From IMG/VR virus record IMGVR_UViG_3300006920_005224, positions 1-20,972 of that record: a DNA stretch of 20,972 nt. One strand, given 5' to 3'. Source of the DNA: a virus. The translations under genes and the position numbers were made by a program. Every line of letters starts with the position of its first letter. Positions within the stretch are counted from its first letter, which is position 1. A model generated the notes under the pieces. That model ran no database searches, was not told where the DNA came from, and was given only the letters and a program-made list of their open reading frames with translations. This document shows positions 2,681 to 20,138 of the stretch, in pieces.

Positions 2681-3289
2681 ATGTTTTACACCGATAAATG
2701 GACCTTTATTCATATACCCAAAACAGCCGGAAGTAATATACTGTCGCGATGTACAAAGCAGTGTGGCAATCGACTTACTGTACCCTGGAACGCATCCACA
2801 CGGCTTTGCCGTCACAACCCAGTATGGTGGTGGACTGAGCACGCACCTATGGCTACTGGACAAGTACTAAGTGTGGTTAGAAACCCGTACTCAAGATCTG
2901 TCAGTCTGTGGAAAGATATTATGAAAGAAGGTGGCCGCGACGTTAGCTTACTGGATTTTTATACGCATAGACCAGCAGATCTTTTTATGCACTGGTTAGG
3001 CAACAATTCGAACCTAGAAAAACAAATACGTTACAACAGAAAAAGCATCGCGTGGGATATGCACAGCACTCAAAAAAGCTTTGTTAACCCGGAAACAACA
3101 GTATTTCGTTACGAGAGTGAGTTACCTTTACTAGAGTCTAAGCTTGGCGTTAGGTTTACAGATACTCGAATTAACACAGGCAATTATAAAATGGACTATA
3201 GATATTATTACAGCGATGAGTCTCAAGAGGCTGTGTACAATCTTTTTAAAGAGGACTTTATAGAGTATGGCTACAATATTAATCTATAG
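2681..3289 (+). CDS. PAPS-dependent sulfotransferase-like protein
   Basis: The 202-aa protein has both PAPS-binding signatures of the Golgi-type or carbohydrate sulfotransferase family: the 5'-phosphosulfate loop FIHIPKTAGSN (residues 9-19) and the 3'-phosphate loop VVRNPYSRSVSLW (residues 65-77, with R67 and S71). The family transfers sulfate from PAPS to hydroxyl groups of glycans, lipids or tyrosines, and the acceptor cannot be told from sequence. It starts two bases after the radical SAM stop and its 3' end overlaps the desaturase by 23 bases, so the three are very probably co-translated. It is shorter than many cellular members but both cofactor loops are intact. Confidence 0.8.
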   Translation: MFYTDKWTFIHIPKTAGSNILSRCTKQCGNRLTVPWNASTRLCRHNPVWWWTEHAPMATGQVLSVVRNPYSRSVSLWKDIMKEGGRDVSLLDFYTHRPADLFMHWLGNNSNLEKQIRYNRKSIAWDMHSTQKSFVNPETTVFRYESELPLLESKLGVRFTDTRINTGNYKMDYRYYYSDESQEAVYNLFKEDFIEYGYNINL

Positions 3290-3902
3290 CTTCATCTGGT
3301 GGTTATTTTTATCATCTGCTGTGATTTCTGCAGGTTACCACCGATACTTTTCACATAGATCCTTTAAGGCTCCCGTGTGGTATGAATATCTAGTACTTAT
3401 ATTAGGGCCTTTGTCTGGCTCTGGTTCTGCCCTTGGTTGGGTCGGCGTTCATAGAATGCACCATAACCACTCAGATACAGAAAAAGATCCACACTCGCCA
3501 AAATATCAGCCGATGTGGAGAGTGCTTACCTCTACGTTTAAAGTACCCGCAATTCGACCGCGTCATATCACTGATCTACTTAAAAACAAACGAGTTTTAT
3601 GGTTCCATAGACACCATAAAAAAATTAGACTTTTAACTCTTTTTGGGGGGTTACTTTTACCCTTTGAATGGTATATAATACTTATTATATCGCCGATGAT
3701 TTATGGCTATTTAGGGTACGGACTGCTTAACACGCTGTGTCACAGACACGAGCATGTTTCAAATTCCTGGATAGCAAACATACTTACAGGTGGTGAAGGT
3801 TGGCATGCGAATCATCATGATCAACCTAGAGACTGGCGTATTGGAAAGAAATGGTGGGAATGGGATCCGGCAGCTTGGTTTATTCGATTGATCCAAAAAT
3901 AG
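3267..3902 (+). CDS. Membrane fatty-acid desaturase (delta-9 type), compact
   Basis: All three histidine boxes of acyl desaturases are present in order: H25xxxxH30 (YHRYFSHRSF), H62xxH65H66 (GVHRMHHNHSD, followed by DPHSP) and H180xxH183H184 (GEGWHANHH), plus the N155xxxH159 motif seen in delta-9 enzymes. These ligate the diiron centre that inserts a double bond into an acyl chain. Hydrophobic segments lie at about residues 5-22, 42-58, 123-132 and 135-155. At 211 aa it is shorter than usual bacterial delta-9 desaturases (commonly about 270 aa or more), having trimmed termini but a complete active site. The start lies inside the sulfotransferase 3' end and the stop lies inside the next gene. 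It could act on host membrane lipids or on a dedicated acyl substrate. Confidence 0.85.
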   Translation: MATILIYSFIWWLFLSSAVISAGYHRYFSHRSFKAPVWYEYLVLILGPLSGSGSALGWVGVHRMHHNHSDTEKDPHSPKYQPMWRVLTSTFKVPAIRPRHITDLLKNKRVLWFHRHHKKIRLLTLFGGLLLPFEWYIILIISPMIYGYLGYGLLNTLCHRHEHVSNSWIANILTGGEGWHANHHDQPRDWRIGKKWWEWDPAAWFIRLIQK

Positions 3903-5952: not shown

Positions 5953-6168
5953 ATGTTTTCAGCAATGGTTTTAGCTTGTGTATTAAGCTCAGATGGAAGT
6001 TTAAATCCCAATAACTGTCGGGGATTCGTTTCTCCTTATATTTGGGAAAATAATGATCACTGTATGCAAGCACTACAAGTTGGTATAGCCGAAGTTGATA
6101 ATCAAGGTTGGGCAGTCATGGACTACCAATGTTTTAACTGGGAAACTAAAAAAGGTACTAGACTTTAA
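5953..6168 (+). CDS. Small cysteine-containing protein, possibly exported
   Basis: Starting at the ATG at 5953, which has a strong AAAGGAG seven bases upstream, the product is 71 aa. It has a hydrophobic N-terminus (MFSAMVLACVL) and cysteines at about residues 8, 21, 38 and 60. It could be a secreted or membrane-associated protein with disulfides, though the first cysteine lies in the hydrophobic segment. No domain is recognised. Its stop overlaps the next start as TAATG, so it is probably translationally coupled to the third 2OG oxygenase. Confidence 0.65.
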   Translation: MFSAMVLACVLSSDGSLNPNNCRGFVSPYIWENNDHCMQALQVGIAEVDNQGWAVMDYQCFNWETKKGTRL

Positions 6169-6872
6169 TGGAACTTAAACGGTGGTTTAGTAGTCCGATA
6201 GGAATTGTTAACTTTGGTGAAATGTCAAGGGATTTAAACACTAAGCTTATAGAAACTATTGATGTCGAGATGGATCAAAAGGCTAATAGAGATCAAAGAT
6301 CTTGGGCTAACAATTCTGCATCTACTGACAAAAATCTTTTATCACATAAACCCTTTCAGATGCTAAATCAGGTGATCTCGCTTTCACTTAAAAACGTTAT
6401 GGTCGGATATGGATACAGAGAAGAAGCTGTAAAGTATATTACGATTGATTACTATTGGGCTAATAGAGCTACACAAGGTGGTTGGTCAAGACCGCATTAC
6501 CACGGCTCAGGAAATACTCTGTGGAGTGGGGTTTATTACCCGCATGGATACGAAGATACCGAACAGAATCTAGACGACTTCAATGAAGATGATTGGATTT
6601 TTGGCGGCGGAAGATTACCTGACGATCCAGGCGGTTTTCTATGTCTTCAGGATACGTCTTTTACTACTAAGGGGTTAATTACACCTGGTGATAAAGATAT
6701 TTTTAAAGCTAATAGTGATTTCAGTACACGTAAATGGGTAAAACCGCGACAAGGTTTATTAGTCCTATTTCCCTGTTGGCAAGATCATTTCGTAGAGCCG
6801 GTGAGTAAAGATGAAACCCGGTATAGCATTTCATTTGGCGCACGACTTAGTGATGCTTATTGGAATAAGTAA
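6168..6872 (+). CDS. 2OG-Fe(II) oxygenase of the phage SGVYY family
   Basis: The 234-aa protein matches the pattern of the putative 2OG-Fe(II) oxygenase family often found in T4-like marine phages (the TIGR02466 type): a Trp-Asn region followed by RPHYHGSGNTLWSGVYY (His at 110 and 112), GGFLCLQD, then GLLVLFPCWQDHFVEPV with the distal H207, and ETRYSISFGAR with R218. The substrate of this family in phages is not established. The start is fixed by the TAATG overlap with the preceding gene. It closes the enzyme array; a 17-base gap with a strong AAGGAGG separates it from the small-gene region. Confidence 0.8.
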   Translation: MELKRWFSSPIGIVNFGEMSRDLNTKLIETIDVEMDQKANRDQRSWANNSASTDKNLLSHKPFQMLNQVISLSLKNVMVGYGYREEAVKYITIDYYWANRATQGGWSRPHYHGSGNTLWSGVYYPHGYEDTEQNLDDFNEDDWIFGGGRLPDDPGGFLCLQDTSFTTKGLITPGDKDIFKANSDFSTRKWVKPRQGLLVLFPCWQDHFVEPVSKDETRYSISFGARLSDAYWNK

Positions 6873-10450: not shown

Positions 10451-11362
10451 ATGTCTTTTGCAAATCTTAAACGTAACCGTAACTCCATCGATAAACTCGT
10501 AGCTGCAGCAGAAGCTACTGGAGGCGGTGAAAAATCCTCCTACAAAGACGAACGCATGTGGAAGCCAACCATTGATAAGATGGGTAATGGCTATGCGGTA
10601 ATTCGTTTCCTACCAGCAACCGAAGATCAGGATCTCCCGTGGGTACGCTACTGGGATCATGGATTTAAGGGTCAGACGGGTAAATGGTACATCGAACGTT
10701 CTTTGACTTCAATCGGTCAGGATGATCCAGTAGGCGTGCTTAACAGCAAGCTCTGGAACATGAGTGACGATGATAAGTCTCCGACACGTAAACAAGCTCG
10801 AGATCAGAAGCGTCGTCTGCACCATGTAGCAAACGTACTTGTAGTATCTGATCCTGCCAATCCACAGAACGAAGGCAAGGTCTTCATGTATCAGTTTGGT
10901 AAGAAAATCTTCGATAAGATCATGGATGCTATGCAGCCACAGTACGCCGACGAGACTCCAATGAACCCATTCGATTTTTGGGAAGGCGCTGACTTTAAGA
11001 TTAAAATTCGTAAAGTAGAAGGTTGGGTGAACTATGATAAAAGCGAGTTTAGCTCTGCATCTGAACTATCTTCAGATGAGGCGTACCTCGAAGGCATCTA
11101 CAACACACTGCATCCTCTGAGCGAGTTTACAGATCCTAAGTTTTATAAGTCTTATGCTGATCTTGAGAAGAAGATGAATGACGTCCTTGCTCTTCAGTCT
11201 GAGATGCCTATGGCACAACAGTCTATGATGAATGCAGAATCACCTGCACCAGTCATGCGTGAGACACCACCTCAGACTATTGAAGAGATGGCAACTGCAT
11301 CTGACGATACTGAGGAAGAAGAGGATACCATGAGCTACTTTGCCAAGCTGGCAAACGGTTAA
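10451..11362 (+). CDS. 32: Single-stranded DNA-binding protein gp32
   Basis: The 303-aa protein aligns by eye with T4 gp32: basic N-terminus for self-association, then the core WKPTIDKMGNGYAVIRFLP, DHGFKGQTGKWYIE, HHVANVLVVSDP, NEGKVFMYQFGKKIFDKI, FWEGADFKIKI and NYDKSEF, and an acidic tail (SDDTEEEEDT) for partner proteins. It coats ssDNA in replication, recombination and repair. The T4 zinc ligands C77, C87 and C90 are replaced (YIERSLTSIGQDDPVGVL), only the His remains, and the protein has no cysteine at all, so the subdomain must fold without zinc. Its stop overlaps that of the convergent gene by 4 bases. Confidence 0.93.
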   Translation: MSFANLKRNRNSIDKLVAAAEATGGGEKSSYKDERMWKPTIDKMGNGYAVIRFLPATEDQDLPWVRYWDHGFKGQTGKWYIERSLTSIGQDDPVGVLNSKLWNMSDDDKSPTRKQARDQKRRLHHVANVLVVSDPANPQNEGKVFMYQFGKKIFDKIMDAMQPQYADETPMNPFDFWEGADFKIKIRKVEGWVNYDKSEFSSASELSSDEAYLEGIYNTLHPLSEFTDPKFYKSYADLEKKMNDVLALQSEMPMAQQSMMNAESPAPVMRETPPQTIEEMATASDDTEEEEDTMSYFAKLANG

Positions 11363-13269
11363 TCTAGTCCAGCAATAGCTCCACCCACATCATGTGGGTT
11401 GGGCGTGCTCCCAGCATCTATTCGAGTATTAGAAACATTAGTAGACGCGTCGGTGGTTGTCACTGGCGCGTTTACTGTTGCAGCAGCTCGTTGTTCGTAA
11501 GTTGCCATTATCTGCTCAAGTCTTGCTAGCTCCTCCATCATTACCTGAACTTGGGGCTGACTAGCGTAATATTCGCTCGCTTGACTACGCAACTGTGGAG
11601 AGCCTCTTCCGCGCGTGAGTTCTTTAGATCTTTTTTCCCACTCTTCGAATGTTATGTCGCCAGCCATCTCCTGCCGATCTAATTCTCTTTGAGCGTTAGA
11701 TGAAGCTTTACTATAATTAAATTCCCCGACCCCACTTGGACGCATTATCCCGGTTGAAACAATATAGTCAAATATTTCTTCTTTGTTTTTAAAGCCACCT
11801 AATAAAGACCCAGATTCTTGCTTGGCCGATAGCATCTTTTCATCTAATCCCAATGCTCTAAGCGCTTTTAAAGCTGACTCTGTGGCTAAATTTCCAGCCT
11901 TTGATCCCAGAGAAGATTCGCCAAACGATTCTTGGGCTACCTCTTCGTTGCTTTTGCCTGTAAACATTCGCAGGGCAGATTTGGCTGCATAGATCCCTAG
12001 ATCGGCCATGCCTACAATACCTTCGGCAGCACCACCAGCGCCGCCTGATAACTTTTCTAAATTGGTAGCTACCTGCCCCATCTCGGCTGTTTCAACGACC
12101 TGTTTCTTCGCGCCTTGGACAGCATCGCTAGCAACTAGAAGAGCACCAAGCGGTGCAGCCGCAAGTTTACTAACTGCTTTAGCACCACGGCGCGCTACGA
12201 CGAGGACCGGCTGTGGCCGCTTCAATGCTGCTAAGACCTCCTTGGGCGAGGCAAATGGCAGTTCGCCGCCAGGAGTTATTTTTCTGATGCTTATTCTACC
12301 GTCTTTGTGCTGGACTCTTTTGAATCCTGCGGTCTCAAGATCTGTATCCGAAAACTTAGATAACTCCGTCTGAGTAACGCTTTTAGAAGGGGCATCATCA
12401 CCAAGCGCACTAGATGGGGCTGATGGTCTAGCCGTTTGACCAGCTCCTCGAGGATCATACTCAGCATCTACTGCTATATACTGCGCTCTTTCAAGAGCCA
12501 GACGACTAGCCTTAGTACTTCTGGCTTTTTTTACTTCTGCAGCAGCGATCTCAGCGTTTTTAGCTCTTAAAGCACGTTCGTCAGCGAGAACTTTATCGCT
12601 AGCTGCACGATTGGCTAATTTTTTCTTTAACTCTTTTTCTTCGTATAGCTTGTCAGCCTCACGCATTTTAGCACGGGCTTCTTCCATCTTCTGTTGTCTT
12701 TCAAACCGCTTTGCTTCTTTCTTAGCCGCCAGTTCTTTTCTGTGAGCTGCAGCAGATTCGGCTCTTAAGCTGCGTTCTTCCACTTTAAGCCTATCTGATT
12801 CTGCGCGTGCATTTAATCTTTCAGCTTTTTGCTTTTTCTTTAATTCATCAGCCTCAATTAAAGAAAGACCCCGTTGGGTTTTGGCGCGCTTCGACATGAC
12901 GTCTGAAAGAGCCGTGGCTGCGCCGCTTAACAACTTTAATGCGCCTTTGGCAGTTGCCAGACCCGCACCGAGCAAAGTAAGGTCTTTTATCCCACTTAAT
13001 ATACCAGGAATATTACTTCCTTTAGATGCCTTAGAGGCAGAAGTAAAGGCGCCACCAGCAGCAGCGCCTTTACCCAATCCTTTTAAGAGTTTATTTCTTT
13101 CACGTTCCGCTTCTAGTCTATCGCCCCGACCGTTTTTTTCATTTTCAAGAAACTTTTTAAGATTCTTGTCCATGGACTGTAGAGATTTATTCCCAGTCTC
13201 TTGGTTCTCGATGATGATTTTATCATCTTCTTGAATTAGCCTTGCGACTTCCTGTAACGTGATAGCCAT
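11359..13269 (-). CDS. Probable tail tape measure protein (coiled-coil structural protein)
   Basis: The 636-aa protein has a short N-terminal helix, a Gly/Ala-rich hydrophobic stretch (about 88-125), a long charged coiled coil rich in Lys, Glu, Arg and Ala (about 135-265), a second Ala-rich hydrophobic stretch (about 358-385), and a polar Thr/Asn/Ala tail containing VNAPVTTTDASTN. This composition and the position directly after tube, gp26 and gp51-like genes suggest the tape measure, the counterpart of T4 gp29 (590 aa). At about 1.5 angstrom per residue, 636 residues span about 95 nm, near the T4 tail length. No strong sequence match to gp29 is visible, so the role is inferred from synteny and composition. 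The start overlaps the gp51-like stop as TAATG. Confidence 0.55.
   Translation of the reverse strand: MAITLQEVARLIQEDDKIIIENQETGNKSLQSMDKNLKKFLENEKNGRGDRLEAERERNKLLKGLGKGAAAGGAFTSASKASKGSNIPGILSGIKDLTLLGAGLATAKGALKLLSGAATALSDVMSKRAKTQRGLSLIEADELKKKQKAERLNARAESDRLKVEERSLRAESAAAHRKELAAKKEAKRFERQQKMEEARAKMREADKLYEEKELKKKLANRAASDKVLADERALRAKNAEIAAAEVKKARSTKASRLALERAQYIAVDAEYDPRGAGQTARPSAPSSALGDDAPSKSVTQTELSKFSDTDLETAGFKRVQHKDGRISIRKITPGGELPFASPKEVLAALKRPQPVLVVARRGAKAVSKLAAAPLGALLVASDAVQGAKKQVVETAEMGQVATNLEKLSGGAGGAAEGIVGMADLGIYAAKSALRMFTGKSNEEVAQESFGESSLGSKAGNLATESALKALRALGLDEKMLSAKQESGSLLGGFKNKEEIFDYIVSTGIMRPSGVGEFNYSKASSNAQRELDRQEMAGDITFEEWEKRSKELTRGRGSPQLRSQASEYYASQPQVQVMMEELARLEQIMATYEQRAAATVNAPVTTTDASTNVSNTRIDAGSTPNPHDVGGAIAGLD
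11383..11399. repeat. Inverted repeat near the convergent gene ends
   Basis: ACCCAC, loop ATCAT, GTGGGT lies inside the last codons of the - strand gene, about 20 bases beyond the gp32 stop. No T-run follows on either strand, so it is at best a weak bidirectional pause or RNA end-stabilising hairpin. Confidence 0.35.
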
Positions 13270-13424
13270 TATTGCATCTCTCTTATTTGTTGTTCTCGCG
13301 CCTTCATCTGATTAATTAATAAAGTAACGTATACTTCCCTTTCCCACGGCATCATACTATAAAGATCTGCTAGTGAATAACTATGATTTTCCATTAATTG
13401 AAAGTTTGTTTCAAAGTGATTCAC
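13269..13424 (-). CDS. 51: gp51-like hub/tape-measure chaperone segment, probably expressed by -1 frameshift
   Basis: A frame open from 13457 to the TAA at 13269 encodes a polypeptide with HSYSLADLYSMMPWEREVY and a charged helical end, a pattern I associate with gp51-type hub-assembly proteins and with the frameshifted chaperone extensions of other phages. The only possible starts are GTG at 13424 (51 aa, coordinates given) and ATG at 13394 (41 aa), and neither has a ribosome site. The frame is open back to the slippery heptamer at the end of gp26, so expression as a gp26 fusion (60 extra residues, about 297 aa in total) is the preferred reading. The stop overlaps the tape-measure start. Confidence 0.6.
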   Translation of the reverse strand: MNHFETNFQLMENHSYSLADLYSMMPWEREVYVTLLINQMKAREQQIREMQ

Positions 13425-13444
13425 TAGGTTTTCGTGAGAAAGGG

Positions 13445-14161
13445 CTATTCGAAAAAATCAGATAATCCTCTTAAAGTTGTTTGGTTTTTATGTTTACAGC
13501 CTTCACACTCGAACTCCACGCCTAATTTCATGCTAGGTGTATTAAGTACAAATTCTCTAAGCTTTTCAAATTGGCGTGACGTCATACTATTAACAAAGGC
13601 TTCTAATTCTTCTTTGGGCTCTTCGTTTACCTGCAGACGCTCATCTTGGGTAAGAACCGCCTCAATGCTGTTCATAATAATAGCGTAAAGCCTTGATATA
13701 TCGTCTTTTGCTTCAGCAATTTCAGGCTGCGATAAAGAATCATTATACGAGAGATATTTCATCTCTAAAGAAATTCCCGGGCTAATCTCAATAATATTTG
13801 ATGTATCATCGGGAAATTCTACAGTCACATCATTTAGGTTTAGGGTTACTGATGTTTCATGTTCACATTCTTCACAAAGAAAAAATAGATCACTAGTTTC
13901 GCCGACCGATTTACTCCGGATCTTTAGGAAAAGGTATTCGGCATCAAATGATGATAGTTTATTAACGTCAATGGGGTCTTCAATACAAGCTTGAACCAAA
14001 TCCAGTGTTGCTCTGGTAATTTGATTTATATCATCAGACTCAGCTGCAATTAATAGTACCTTTTCTTCGCCAACGAGATAAGGCCTAAACCTGGTCTTTT
14101 TGTTCATCGAAGGGATAGTCACCTCATACTTTGGTGCATCATTTAACTTGGGTAGTGCCAT
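13445..14161 (-). CDS. 26: Baseplate hub subunit gp26 (T4_baseplate family), zinc-ribbon-like
   Basis: The 238-aa protein fits the gp26 family (PF12322): N-terminal beta segment YEVTIPSMNKKTRFRPYLVGEEKVLL, then IDVNKLSSFDAEYLFLKIR, then two CxxC knuckles, C96-x2-C99 (FLCEECEH) and C219-x2-C222 (FECEGCKH), which probably form one zinc ribbon. In T4 gp26 is needed for hub assembly. Here it lies between the tail tube and the tape measure candidate, which is the place of the tail assembly chaperone in other long-tailed phages. Its last codons contain T TTT TTC just before the TAG. AAGGA lies upstream of the ATG. The family call is firm; the chaperone role is inferred. Confidence 0.8.
   Translation of the reverse strand: MALPKLNDAPKYEVTIPSMNKKTRFRPYLVGEEKVLLIAAESDDINQITRATLDLVQACIEDPIDVNKLSSFDAEYLFLKIRSKSVGETSDLFFLCEECEHETSVTLNLNDVTVEFPDDTSNIIEISPGISLEMKYLSYNDSLSQPEIAEAKDDISRLYAIIMNSIEAVLTQDERLQVNEEPKEELEAFVNSMTSRQFEKLREFVLNTPSMKLGVEFECEGCKHKNQTTLRGLSDFFE
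13451..13457 (-). promoter_or_regulatory. Putative -1 ribosomal frameshift site T TTT TTC
   Basis: On the - strand gp26 reads GAT TTT TTC GAA TAG. The heptamer T TTT TTC obeys X XXY YYZ in the gp26 frame, two codons before the stop. After a -1 slip the reading continues as CGA ATA GCC and runs through the gp51-like frame to 13269. The -1 frame has a TGA immediately upstream of the heptamer, so the open overlap begins at the slip site. Confidence 0.6.
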
Positions 14162-14179
14162 TCATTATATCCTTATAAT

Positions 14180-14887
14180 TTAAAATAGTTTATCTAGAAG
14201 ATCTTCGACTTTGCTTTCAAAGAAACTTTCAACTTTATATAGCGGGTTAGAAGTAGACACCCAATTTCTGTAGCTGAGCTGTACACTTAATTCAATTACA
14301 TCTTCTTGTGAGTTACCCAGCTCAATGGTATTCATAGTTGTTGGGAATGCTTCTCTTAGTTCGCACTCATACACAATCTGATTGCCTCCTAAGAATCCAA
14401 CTTCGAGCGATCCCTGTGCTAAATTGATTGGACCAACCTTAGGAAGAAACTGTTGGATAAGCGACGGAATAGAAGGAATTCCAAGTGGGGTTTGGTATAC
14501 GGGAAGATCGGTACCTTTTGTTAGTTGCTGGATTTTTATATCAAATGCATAGTCTCTTAAGTAACCCACTTCAAGTGTACTTTGATTAATGCACAAATTT
14601 TGCCAGCGTTCAAAGTAGGTACGAATGCCGTAGTCATTCAGTAGTAAAAATGATAACTGTACGTCGTCGTATGCTTGATCGTATGCGACCTTTTGATTGA
14701 TAAGACCAATCTTACGTTCTTGGGTCATGATCTGGCGACCAGGTATATTCACACCAGTACAAAGAAGGTTTACCTCTTGTGAAGTAGCACCTGGTATTGC
14801 TGGAAAGAATACCCTGAATACATTACCTCTAGCTAGTCCACGTTTCTGTGACACCAGACCTTTTAGTTCGTTAATCGAATCAGCCAT
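14180..14887 (-). CDS. 19: Tail tube protein gp19
   Basis: The 235-aa protein fits the T4 gp19 tube family, which stacks as hexamers inside the sheath and caps onto the baseplate. Visible features are the N-terminal ARGNVFRVFFP strand, the LLCTGVNIPGRQI turn, AYDDVQLSFLLLNDYGIRTYFERWQ (the conserved strand-helix), and a C-terminal YECELREAFPTTMNTIELGN, then VIELSVQLSYRNW. It is longer than T4 gp19 (163 aa), mainly through a Pro/Gly-rich insertion at about residues 124-160. It overlaps the preceding - strand gene by 8 bases and is followed by gp26. A high-copy product is expected. Confidence 0.88.
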   Translation of the reverse strand: MADSINELKGLVSQKRGLARGNVFRVFFPAIPGATSQEVNLLCTGVNIPGRQIMTQERKIGLINQKVAYDQAYDDVQLSFLLLNDYGIRTYFERWQNLCINQSTLEVGYLRDYAFDIKIQQLTKGTDLPVYQTPLGIPSIPSLIQQFLPKVGPINLAQGSLEVGFLGGNQIVYECELREAFPTTMNTIELGNSQEDVIELSVQLSYRNWVSTSNPLYKVESFFESKVEDLLDKLF

Positions 14888-17787: not shown

Positions 17788-19119
17788 ATGACTGATCAAA
17801 AACCATTTCAATCGTCTAATGATTACACCATTAAAAGTGTTACTGTAACAAGTGACACTGGAACAGTAATCAATATTGCAAATCTTGTTGCACAGTTAGA
17901 GATTTTTGAAAGTCTAGAAAGACCGTATCTTACTGGGATAATGTTAATCCGGGATGATGTTGATTTTGTTGACGGCATTTCCTTTAATGGCACAGAAAGA
18001 TGTGTTATTACTATTGAGCAACCGCTGAGTAATGGTGTCCCAATTACTATTAATTTTATTCTAAGAAAAATTAATTCAGTAAGAAAGACCAATGACCAAA
18101 CCGAAATTCTAAGTATATCACTGATTGAAGAAGTAGCTTTTAACTCACAGCTACAAAAATTATCAACATCTTATACAGGAAGACCTGACGAGATCATACA
18201 AAAGATCTTTGAGGATGTTGATGAGACAATTGACATGCCAATTATTGTTCCTGCGCAATCGCCTAATATTAAATACTTAATCCCTAATCTGACTGCAATG
18301 AGTGCTGCAGACACTGTTAAGTCCAGATGCTCAACGGAAAATGGTATGCCATTCTTTCTTTATAAGACTATGAATGAGCCAAACATAAAATTAAAATCAT
18401 TAGAAGAAATGATGGCTACTCCACCCTGGAATCAGGGTAAACCCTATCGCTACTCTCAGGCATACACCAACAGCCAAGTTAATTTAACGGCTGAAGCGCT
18501 TGCTTATTCTGTAGAAAAGTTTTCATACGCTACCAAGGATGACACGCTTTCACTTATAGAAGCTGGATCAGTTACTAGCTCAATTGATATGATTGACCTT
18601 ACCACAGGGGTCAAAGAATCATTCTCATTCAATGCACAGGCCGCATTTCAAGGCCTATATGACACTGGCGTTCTTACTCCAGATAATAACCCAGTGTTAT
18701 CATCGAAGTATACCTTTAACGACTTAGATCTTACAAATGCACCAGCAAAAACAATTAGTAGAGTGATAACTACCTCCACATATAATGGTTATAAAAATCT
18801 TTTTGAAGAAACCTCTCCAGCTCTGTTTAAGCTAGATTTCGTAAGAAGAGCGTTTAAAAATATAATGCTTAAAAGCTCTATTAGTATAACGGTACCGGGC
18901 ATTCATTACCTTACGGGAGTGAACAAAAGTATCGGGACTCAAATACAATTCTTCTATCATAACAATAACTCTGTCTCTATAGATAAACTTTCTTCGGAAG
19001 ACGATTTAAGAGATCGAAAAAGATCTGGTAAATACATTGTGTATGCAGCAAGACATTTGTTTGTGGCAAATAAGCATACGGTAGATCTTCAAGCAGTTAA
19101 ACTAGGGAATGAAAAATAA
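17788..19119 (+). CDS. Baseplate hub protein, gp27-like
   Basis: The 443-aa protein is mostly beta-rich, with LEIFESLERPYLTGIMLIRDD near the N-terminus, ISLIEEVAFNSQLQKLSTSYTGRPDEIIQKIFED (about 110-145) and a C-terminal IGTQIQFFYHNN followed by SGKYIVYAARHLF. The RPYLTG strand, the helical GRPDEIIQKI segment and the final YIVYAARH strand fit the tube-domain hub proteins represented by T4 gp27 and P2 gpD, which hold gp5. It lies directly before gp5, two bases after gp53 and with a one-base overlap with gp5. No close gp27 match is claimed, so the symbol is left empty. Confidence 0.65.
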   Translation: MTDQKPFQSSNDYTIKSVTVTSDTGTVINIANLVAQLEIFESLERPYLTGIMLIRDDVDFVDGISFNGTERCVITIEQPLSNGVPITINFILRKINSVRKTNDQTEILSISLIEEVAFNSQLQKLSTSYTGRPDEIIQKIFEDVDETIDMPIIVPAQSPNIKYLIPNLTAMSAADTVKSRCSTENGMPFFLYKTMNEPNIKLKSLEEMMATPPWNQGKPYRYSQAYTNSQVNLTAEALAYSVEKFSYATKDDTLSLIEAGSVTSSIDMIDLTTGVKESFSFNAQAAFQGLYDTGVLTPDNNPVLSSKYTFNDLDLTNAPAKTISRVITTSTYNGYKNLFEETSPALFKLDFVRRAFKNIMLKSSISITVPGIHYLTGVNKSIGTQIQFFYHNNNSVSIDKLSSEDDLRDRKRSGKYIVYAARHLFVANKHTVDLQAVKLGNEK

Positions 19120-20138
19120 TGCCTGATATTATTAATTCAGAATTTTATGGTGATCAAGTAAGATGGTTTGTTGGTGTTGTTATAGCTGTAGGAGAAGACG
19201 AACCAAAACTCGGTAGGGTTAAGGTTAGGATTTACGGTATCCACGGTGACGAATCACAGGTGCCAGAAGAAGATCTGCCATATGCACAAACGCTTGTGCC
19301 TACTACTGAGCCTGGTGTATCAGGACTGGGTAGAAATCCTTATCTTCAACCGGGTGCAACAGTATTCGGTGTGTTTTTAGATGGTAAACATTCTCAGTCT
19401 CCTTTAGTACTAGGATCTATTCCTACGATACAAACCCCTTCTATCACTCAATTAAATAATCAGTCACAAGATGAGAAGTTTAATGATGTCACAAAACAGA
19501 CCCAAGGGTTTACCGTACCTGGTACGCCAGGTACTGGTACAGGAGGCCGCACTGGCATCCAGAGCGCGCTCGCTGGAGGTCTTGATTCGTTTAATGTAGA
19601 TCCTGATGCACCTGCTGGTACTAACGTACAGATTGCTTGGGAATACTTTAAATCCCTTGATAGATATCCTGACGCTGCCATTGCTGGCTTGCTTGGTAAC
19701 TTCTTAGCTGAATCAGGCAGTGGTAGCCCTATAGATATCCAAACCTCTGCAAGAGGCGATATTGGGTTAAAGGTTCCAGAAGATCAATCATTTGGTATTG
19801 CTCAGTGGTACAATATGGGTGGAGATCCTAATAGTAGATTTGCACAGCTTATTGCATTCTGCGATCGCATCGGTAAGCCAAAAGAAGATCTTCTTGCCCA
19901 ACTTGCATTTGTTGACTGGGAGCTTTCGAATACTAGATGGCTCGGTGGAGAAGAACTTAAGAAAAAGCCTACTGCAACACTGGCAGCTATTCATGTGCAC
20001 AGAAAATATGAAAGACCTGCGCTTGAGAAACCTAAAAAGCTTAGTCCGGTAGATGGTCAGCCGATGCGACTTCATGAAGCAAAAAGAATTAAGTATGCTA
20101 AGATGGTTTACAATCACTTTACCCGTAAGGCCCAATAA
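19119..20138 (+). CDS. 5: Baseplate hub gp5: OB-fold plus tail lysozyme
   Basis: The 339-aa protein has the gp5-type OB-fold at about residues 14-102 (FVGVVIAV, GRVKVRIYGIHG, QPGATVFGVFLDGKHSQSPLVLGSIP), a Gly/Thr/Pro linker (about 130-147), and a C-terminal domain (about 168-338) with GLLGNFLAESG (candidate catalytic E198) and SFGIAQW, which matches the phage tail lysozyme type (PF18013) rather than the T4L-like domain of T4 gp5. It would digest peptidoglycan during tail penetration. T4 gp5 (575 aa) carries a C-terminal triple beta-helix spike, and none is visible here, so the spike must come from another protein. It lies at the end of the gp48-gp53-hub set. Confidence 0.85.
   Translation: MPDIINSEFYGDQVRWFVGVVIAVGEDEPKLGRVKVRIYGIHGDESQVPEEDLPYAQTLVPTTEPGVSGLGRNPYLQPGATVFGVFLDGKHSQSPLVLGSIPTIQTPSITQLNNQSQDEKFNDVTKQTQGFTVPGTPGTGTGGRTGIQSALAGGLDSFNVDPDAPAGTNVQIAWEYFKSLDRYPDAAIAGLLGNFLAESGSGSPIDIQTSARGDIGLKVPEDQSFGIAQWYNMGGDPNSRFAQLIAFCDRIGKPKEDLLAQLAFVDWELSNTRWLGGEELKKKPTATLAAIHVHRKYERPALEKPKKLSPVDGQPMRLHEAKRIKYAKMVYNHFTRKAQ

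Follow-up and report, generated by a model that had tools for sequence, protein, structure and literature searches.

The gp26 gene of the marine T4-like phage DNA analyzed here (IMG/VR record IMGVR_UViG_3300006920_005224, positions 1 to 20,972; this whole stretch of 20,972 nucleotides is called the window) very probably gives rise to two tail assembly chaperones, a short one of 238 aa and a long one of 297 aa, through a programmed -1 frameshift of the lambda gpG/gpGT type. This reading is built on the sequence signals at the end of the gene, their conservation among relatives, selection on the -1 frame ahead of any start codon, and the chaperone fold found for gp26. The features concerned are as follows.

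14180 to 14887, minus strand: tail-tube-fold protein upstream of gp26, gp54/gp19-like (phrog_45 'tail tube', E 2.4e-33)
13445 to 14161, minus strand: gp26, short tail assembly chaperone, 238 aa, 0 frame (PF12322, phrog_150, structural model)
13466 to 13471, minus strand: SD-like AGAGGA, 8 nt upstream of the heptamer, candidate weak stimulator
13451 to 13457, minus strand (read 13457 to 13451): T TTT TTC, the slippery heptamer, set to the codons of gp26 as X XXY YYZ and lying within the -1 overlap
13445 to 13447, minus strand: TAG, the 0-frame stop codon ending the short form
13269 to 13457, minus strand: -1 extension FFRIALSH...REMQ plus TAA, predicted C-terminal domain of the long form, gp51-like (60 aa after FF; phrog_634; pN/pS)
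11359 to 13269, minus strand: next ORF, 636 aa, probable tape measure protein (position; Ala/Lys/Glu-rich)

The gp26 gene and its 3' junction

The 3' end of gp26, read on the minus strand, is TCT GAT TTT TTC GAA TAG, so that the canonical T TTT TTC named in the preliminary description of this DNA is indeed present in frame, at 13457..13451. In the -1 frame a TGA stands directly before the heptamer and is followed by TTT TTT CGA ATA GCC ..., and the frame remains open for 62 codons (FFRIALSHENLVNHFETNFQLMENHSYSLADLYSMMPWEREVYVTLLINQMKAREQQIREMQ) up to a TAA (13271..13269) that overlaps the ATG of the next ORF (13269..13267) by one base. This agrees with the earlier account of a frame closed by TGA at the heptamer and then open for about 60 codons to a TAA on the next start, the 62 codons including the two Phe. 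Possible starts within the frame are a GTG at codon 12 and a first ATG at codon 22, with an SD site at neither, as had also been stated (no ATG in the first 21 codons and no ribosome site at GTG or ATG). The length of the predicted slip product, previously put at roughly 297 aa, was recomputed as 237 + 60 = 297 residues. The window has 51 stop-to-stop ORFs that reach 80 aa, and of these gp26 alone combines a tandem slippery heptamer near its end with a -1 extension of 40 codons or more; in shuffled sequence 60 open codons occur with a probability of 0.006. A chance origin of the junction is untenable, since the junction is kept across the relatives described below.

The two parts of the predicted fusion were compared with known families and structures. 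gp26 matches PF12322 (T4_baseplate) with E 2.7e-56 and 191 bits, against a curated cut-off of 24.5, and matches no other Pfam chaperone family. Its AlphaFold model (pLDDT 94) consists of two halves. For residues 1-92 the best structural match is the HK97 tail assembly chaperone (2OB9; Z 7.9 over 85/107 residues), followed by 3FGX (Z 7.8), YqbN (3KLU; 7.2) and ORF19 of a Vibrio phage-inducible element (Z 5.3); the top matches lie well above the first unrelated one (Z 3.5), and Foldseek gives a probability of 0.82 for gp26 against the HK97 fold. With Z just under 8, the comparison is suggestive, at moderate strength, of a tail assembly chaperone fold in the modelled N-terminal half of gp26. The structure entries state a chaperone function for HK97 only; 3FGX, YqbN and ORF19 are likely to be chaperones as well. 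In the model, residues 89-236 resemble zinc-ribbon folds (ZPR1, Tim15), and gp26 contains conserved cysteine pairs at residues 96/99 (13865-13876) and 219/222 (13496-13507), minus strand, which are kept in the marine set. The -1 extension matches phrog_634 'baseplate hub assembly catalyst' (E 1.3e-21); searched alone, the -1 peptide had neither a significant match in Pfam nor an informative one among structures. A match of this peptide to phrog_11820 'tail assembly chaperone' (E 0.016, 1/28 members) was set aside as too weak to use.

The tail-tube-fold ORF at 14180-14887 occupies the place that gp54/gp19 has in relatives. The 636-aa ORF downstream (11359..13269) has no family match, and its probable identity as the tape measure protein therefore rests on position and on the annotation of a 'putative tail tape measure' nearby in HTVC008M; homologues lie at the same place in loci L010 and L016 of the surveys, with a short match in L014. 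Elsewhere in the window, the plus strand carries phage metabolic genes at 1032-2678, 3267-3902 and 6168-6872 (B12-binding radical SAM protein, fatty acid desaturase and 2OG-Fe(II) oxygenase) and, at 19119-20138, a gp5-like hub protein with an OB domain and a Phage_lysozyme2 domain.

Conservation of the junction and selection in the -1 frame

Relatives of gp26 were drawn from IMG/VR and from GenBank phages, a second survey being seeded with distant groups. In the first survey 92/95 loci have an in-frame T TTT TTN inside a -1 overlap at the end of gp26, followed by a peptide of the form FFxIxLSH...PWERE, and in the second 54/60 have T TTT TTN at the gp26 end with this conserved peptide after it in the -1 frame; the loci are related to one another, and these counts are not counts of independent events. 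Conservation of heptamer and overlap in related phages, which had been proposed as a check, is thus borne out. The arrangement extends over Kyanoviridae, KVP40-like (phi-ST2 among them) and Aeromonas Straboviridae (AS-zj and 65), Emdodecavirus, Sinorhizobium phiM9, Acidovorax ACP17, a Desulfovibrio phage and many IMG/VR contigs.

The junction is conserved at the nucleotide level. T TTT TTN is found in 90/90 unique loci of the first set, and columns 1-6 are invariant in 80 aligned loci. In these 90 loci the third base of the codon preceding the two Phe is T without exception, for D, S, N and A alike, and only TTT is used for the first Phe, though TTT makes up 72% of Phe codons; this codon pattern would have a probability near 1e-32 if sites were independent, the true figure being much larger through kinship. 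Downstream, the -1 frame contains no stop codon in 88 loci, while the other two frames average 6.7 and 5.6 stops per about 175 nt.

The first ATG of the -1 frame lies mostly 20-21 codons past the heptamer, which leaves a stretch of peptide ahead of it. At none of 86 loci is this ATG preceded by an SD-like tetramer at usable spacing, and when first starts of any type are taken (GTG or TTG in some loci) an SD is found at only 1/87. In the 48 nt after the gp26 stop codon, mostly before the first ATG, variability is greatest at third positions of the -1 frame, and pN/pS is 0.28 in that frame compared with 1.02 and 1.50 in the wrong frames. The -1 peptide ahead of its first ATG is under purifying selection, and this is the strongest argument for a frameshift and against a separate gene.

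These observations bear differently on the other ways in which the two frames might be related. GenBank records annotate gp51 from an internal start, and in KVP40-like phages and in Vibrio phage BX-1 an ATG overlaps the gp26 stop codon, as might be expected of a separate small gene started at an internal GTG or ATG and coupled to gp26 translation; such a gene is nevertheless very unlikely, given protein-level conservation ahead of the first ATG, the lack of an SD there in all 86 loci, and a heptamer invariant in nucleotides. Slippage of RNA polymerase on the T run would also join the frames, since the runs are of 6-8 T and one inserted base leads into the same frame. It is very unlikely here: six T, the number present in 34/90 loci, the window included, is short for bacterial transcriptional slippage, and the site is always in X XXY YYZ register with the codons. 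A mutation or assembly error that split a gp51-like fusion could be imagined from T4, where the long form is fused in one ORF, but about 145 loci share this junction, among them independent contigs and cultured phages that belong to several families, and this conservation refutes a broken gene, leaving it a negligible probability.

Proposed mechanism, candidate stimulators and loci without the heptamer

In the programmed frameshift proposed here, most ribosomes would stop at the TAG and release gp26 of 238 aa. In a minority of them, the tRNA-Phe paired with TTT and TTC at the T TTT TTC heptamer would shift back by one base to pair with TTT TTT, and 60 codons of the -1 frame would then be read, giving the 297-aa gp26-51 fusion. 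If lambda gpG/gpGT is taken as the model, coating of the tape measure protein would fall to the gp26 part and recruitment of the tube subunit to the extension. That ribosomes slip here, how efficiently they do so, what each domain does and the ancestry considered below are what we infer.

Two kinds of possible stimulator accompany the heptamer. An SD-like tetramer or longer occurs 8-10 nt upstream in 64/90 loci, compared with 53.5 ± 4.1 expected with synonymous recoding, a weak excess. The region 15-69 nt downstream is more structured than its synonymous recodings (mean z -1.3 to -1.5, compared with about -0.1 in upstream controls). Within it, a stem pairing columns 28-35 with 44-51 (alignment A2) shows compensatory change in 63 cells, compared with 16-29 when slid and 43.8 when shuffled; about 60% of cells form the stem, but the window does not. 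The stem begins 20 nt past the heptamer, which is far for a classical stimulator and counts against it in that role. This covarying stem in the -1 coding region may stimulate the slip or may mask an internal start. When a hairpin shared by all loci was sought with RNAalifold on 84 ungapped sequences, no consensus emerged, and an Rfam search found nothing.

Among Ackermannviridae and Vibrio phages, three loci from the first survey and six from the second keep the -1 frame without a tandem heptamer. Kuttervirus FEC14 and relatives have the junction GAR ATT TTC ATY TAA; Vibrio phages BX-1 and D532 have GTT TTT CGC TAATG and CTT TTC AAG TAATG, respectively, the ATG overlapping the gp26 stop codon in both. 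Heptamer-less loci with a kept -1 frame (...MPWH... or similar) are L096:3760-3970, L107-L117 (Kuttervirus), L093, L095 and L150. Such loci may slip on a single Phe tRNA or, in BX-1 and D532, may restart at the overlapping ATG. Because this distant branch (Kuttervirus, other Ackermannviridae and Vibrio D532) is without a canonical heptamer, the mechanism is not universal. The preliminary description had made its reading depend on relatives keeping the heptamer and having no ribosome site for the downstream gene: across the range listed above the heptamer is kept and an SD is lacking, but the Ackermannviridae and Vibrio phages depart from this in having no canonical heptamer.

Relation to T4 gp26 and gp51 and to known frameshift systems

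T4 carries a short gene 26 and, divergent from it, a gene 51 of 249 aa. T4 gp26 matches PF12322, and so does T4 gp51 over residues 1-201 (E 3.9e-52), while the last 50 residues of gp51 match the family of the -1 peptide (phrog_634; direct comparison E 5e-4). By this combination T4 gp51 is the long form in full, with the gp26 domain followed by the -1 peptide, and a paralogue of gp26. Following T4 gene 26 itself, a gp51-like -1 continuation is absent, and the frame runs into gene 25. The earlier proposal that gp26 and gp51 form the same chaperone system, with separate genes in T4, holds in these respects, but T4 gp51 is not the downstream piece alone.

In a tree of the shared domain, six gp26/gp51 pairs fall on one side of a branch (100/99) and 29 single-copy genes on the other, and the gp51s group together (100/96); a single duplication would be the simplest reading of these pairs. 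The root is not fixed, so that the direction of the duplication is one that we infer. Genes 51 and 26 are tandem on one strand in KP15 (L103:3501-4795) and POP12 (L100:1931-3206), a possible intermediate between the frameshifted single gene and the divergent pair that JSE, Melin and VP8 share with T4. On balance we favor a history in which the frameshifted gene is ancestral across several phage families and was duplicated once, in one lineage of Straboviridae, into a short 26 and a continuous long 51, tandem in KP15 and POP12 and inverted in T4, while the Ackermannviridae branch replaced the heptamer and joins or starts the frame in another way. If this history is true, a programmed frameshift was dissolved by gene duplication. 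The present reading would offer a concrete route from a frameshift to two genes, and would give a function to T4 gp51, which is described as essential, of unknown function and absent from the particle, T4 gp26 and gp51 being hub assembly chaperones (PMC3004832).

The same reading bears on marine phages. Sullivan 2010 (PMC3037559) described the gp51 of cyanophages and marine vibriophages as 'reduced', without the first ~200 residues, and what is left is the same 50-60 aa region as the -1 extension of the window; the 'missing first 200 residues' of cyanophage gp51 would be explained by gp26 supplying them through the frameshift. In marine phages, hundreds of genomes have the extension annotated without its first ~20 residues, and their gp26/gp51 annotation would be corrected.

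Part of this picture has been published. As cited by PRFect, Vladimirov, Gautam and Davidson 2022 (doi 10.1016/j.virol.2021.11.003) found that some T4-like phages have one short gene and one long fused gene and no frameshift; as cited in the Adele paper, the same authors found poly-T -1 signals in T4-like chaperone genes. To the extent that these citations convey it, the T4-like chaperone identity and the two-gene solution of T4 are already in that work, which probably also covers the frameshift in some T4-like phages. Added here are the breadth of the surveys, the test for selection ahead of the first ATG, the structural match, the tree of paralogues with its tandem intermediates, the covarying stem and the exceptions, part of which may already be in Vladimirov et al. 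2022.

A conserved -1 frameshift at a T-rich site with the downstream frame unannotated, as in the window, is known for a myovirus chaperone gene; there the motif is GTTTTT and the phage family is another one. The likeness to T4 lies in gp26 as the short form (PF12322) and in gp51 as PF12322 with the same C-terminal extension, whereas T4 has two separate, divergent paralogous genes and no frameshift where the window has one gene and a putative -1 slip. With lambda gpG/gpGT (PMC5009743) the proposal shares a programmed -1 frameshift that yields tail assembly chaperones; unlike it, the window has PF12322 as its sole Pfam chaperone-family match, a T TTT TTC site and an additional zinc-ribbon-like C-terminal half in gp26. 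A 2016 review (PMC5009743) describes the G-T frameshift as widely conserved 'except T4'; the present reading would extend the frameshift logic of long-tailed phages to much of the T4 superfamily, of which T4 is the cited exception.
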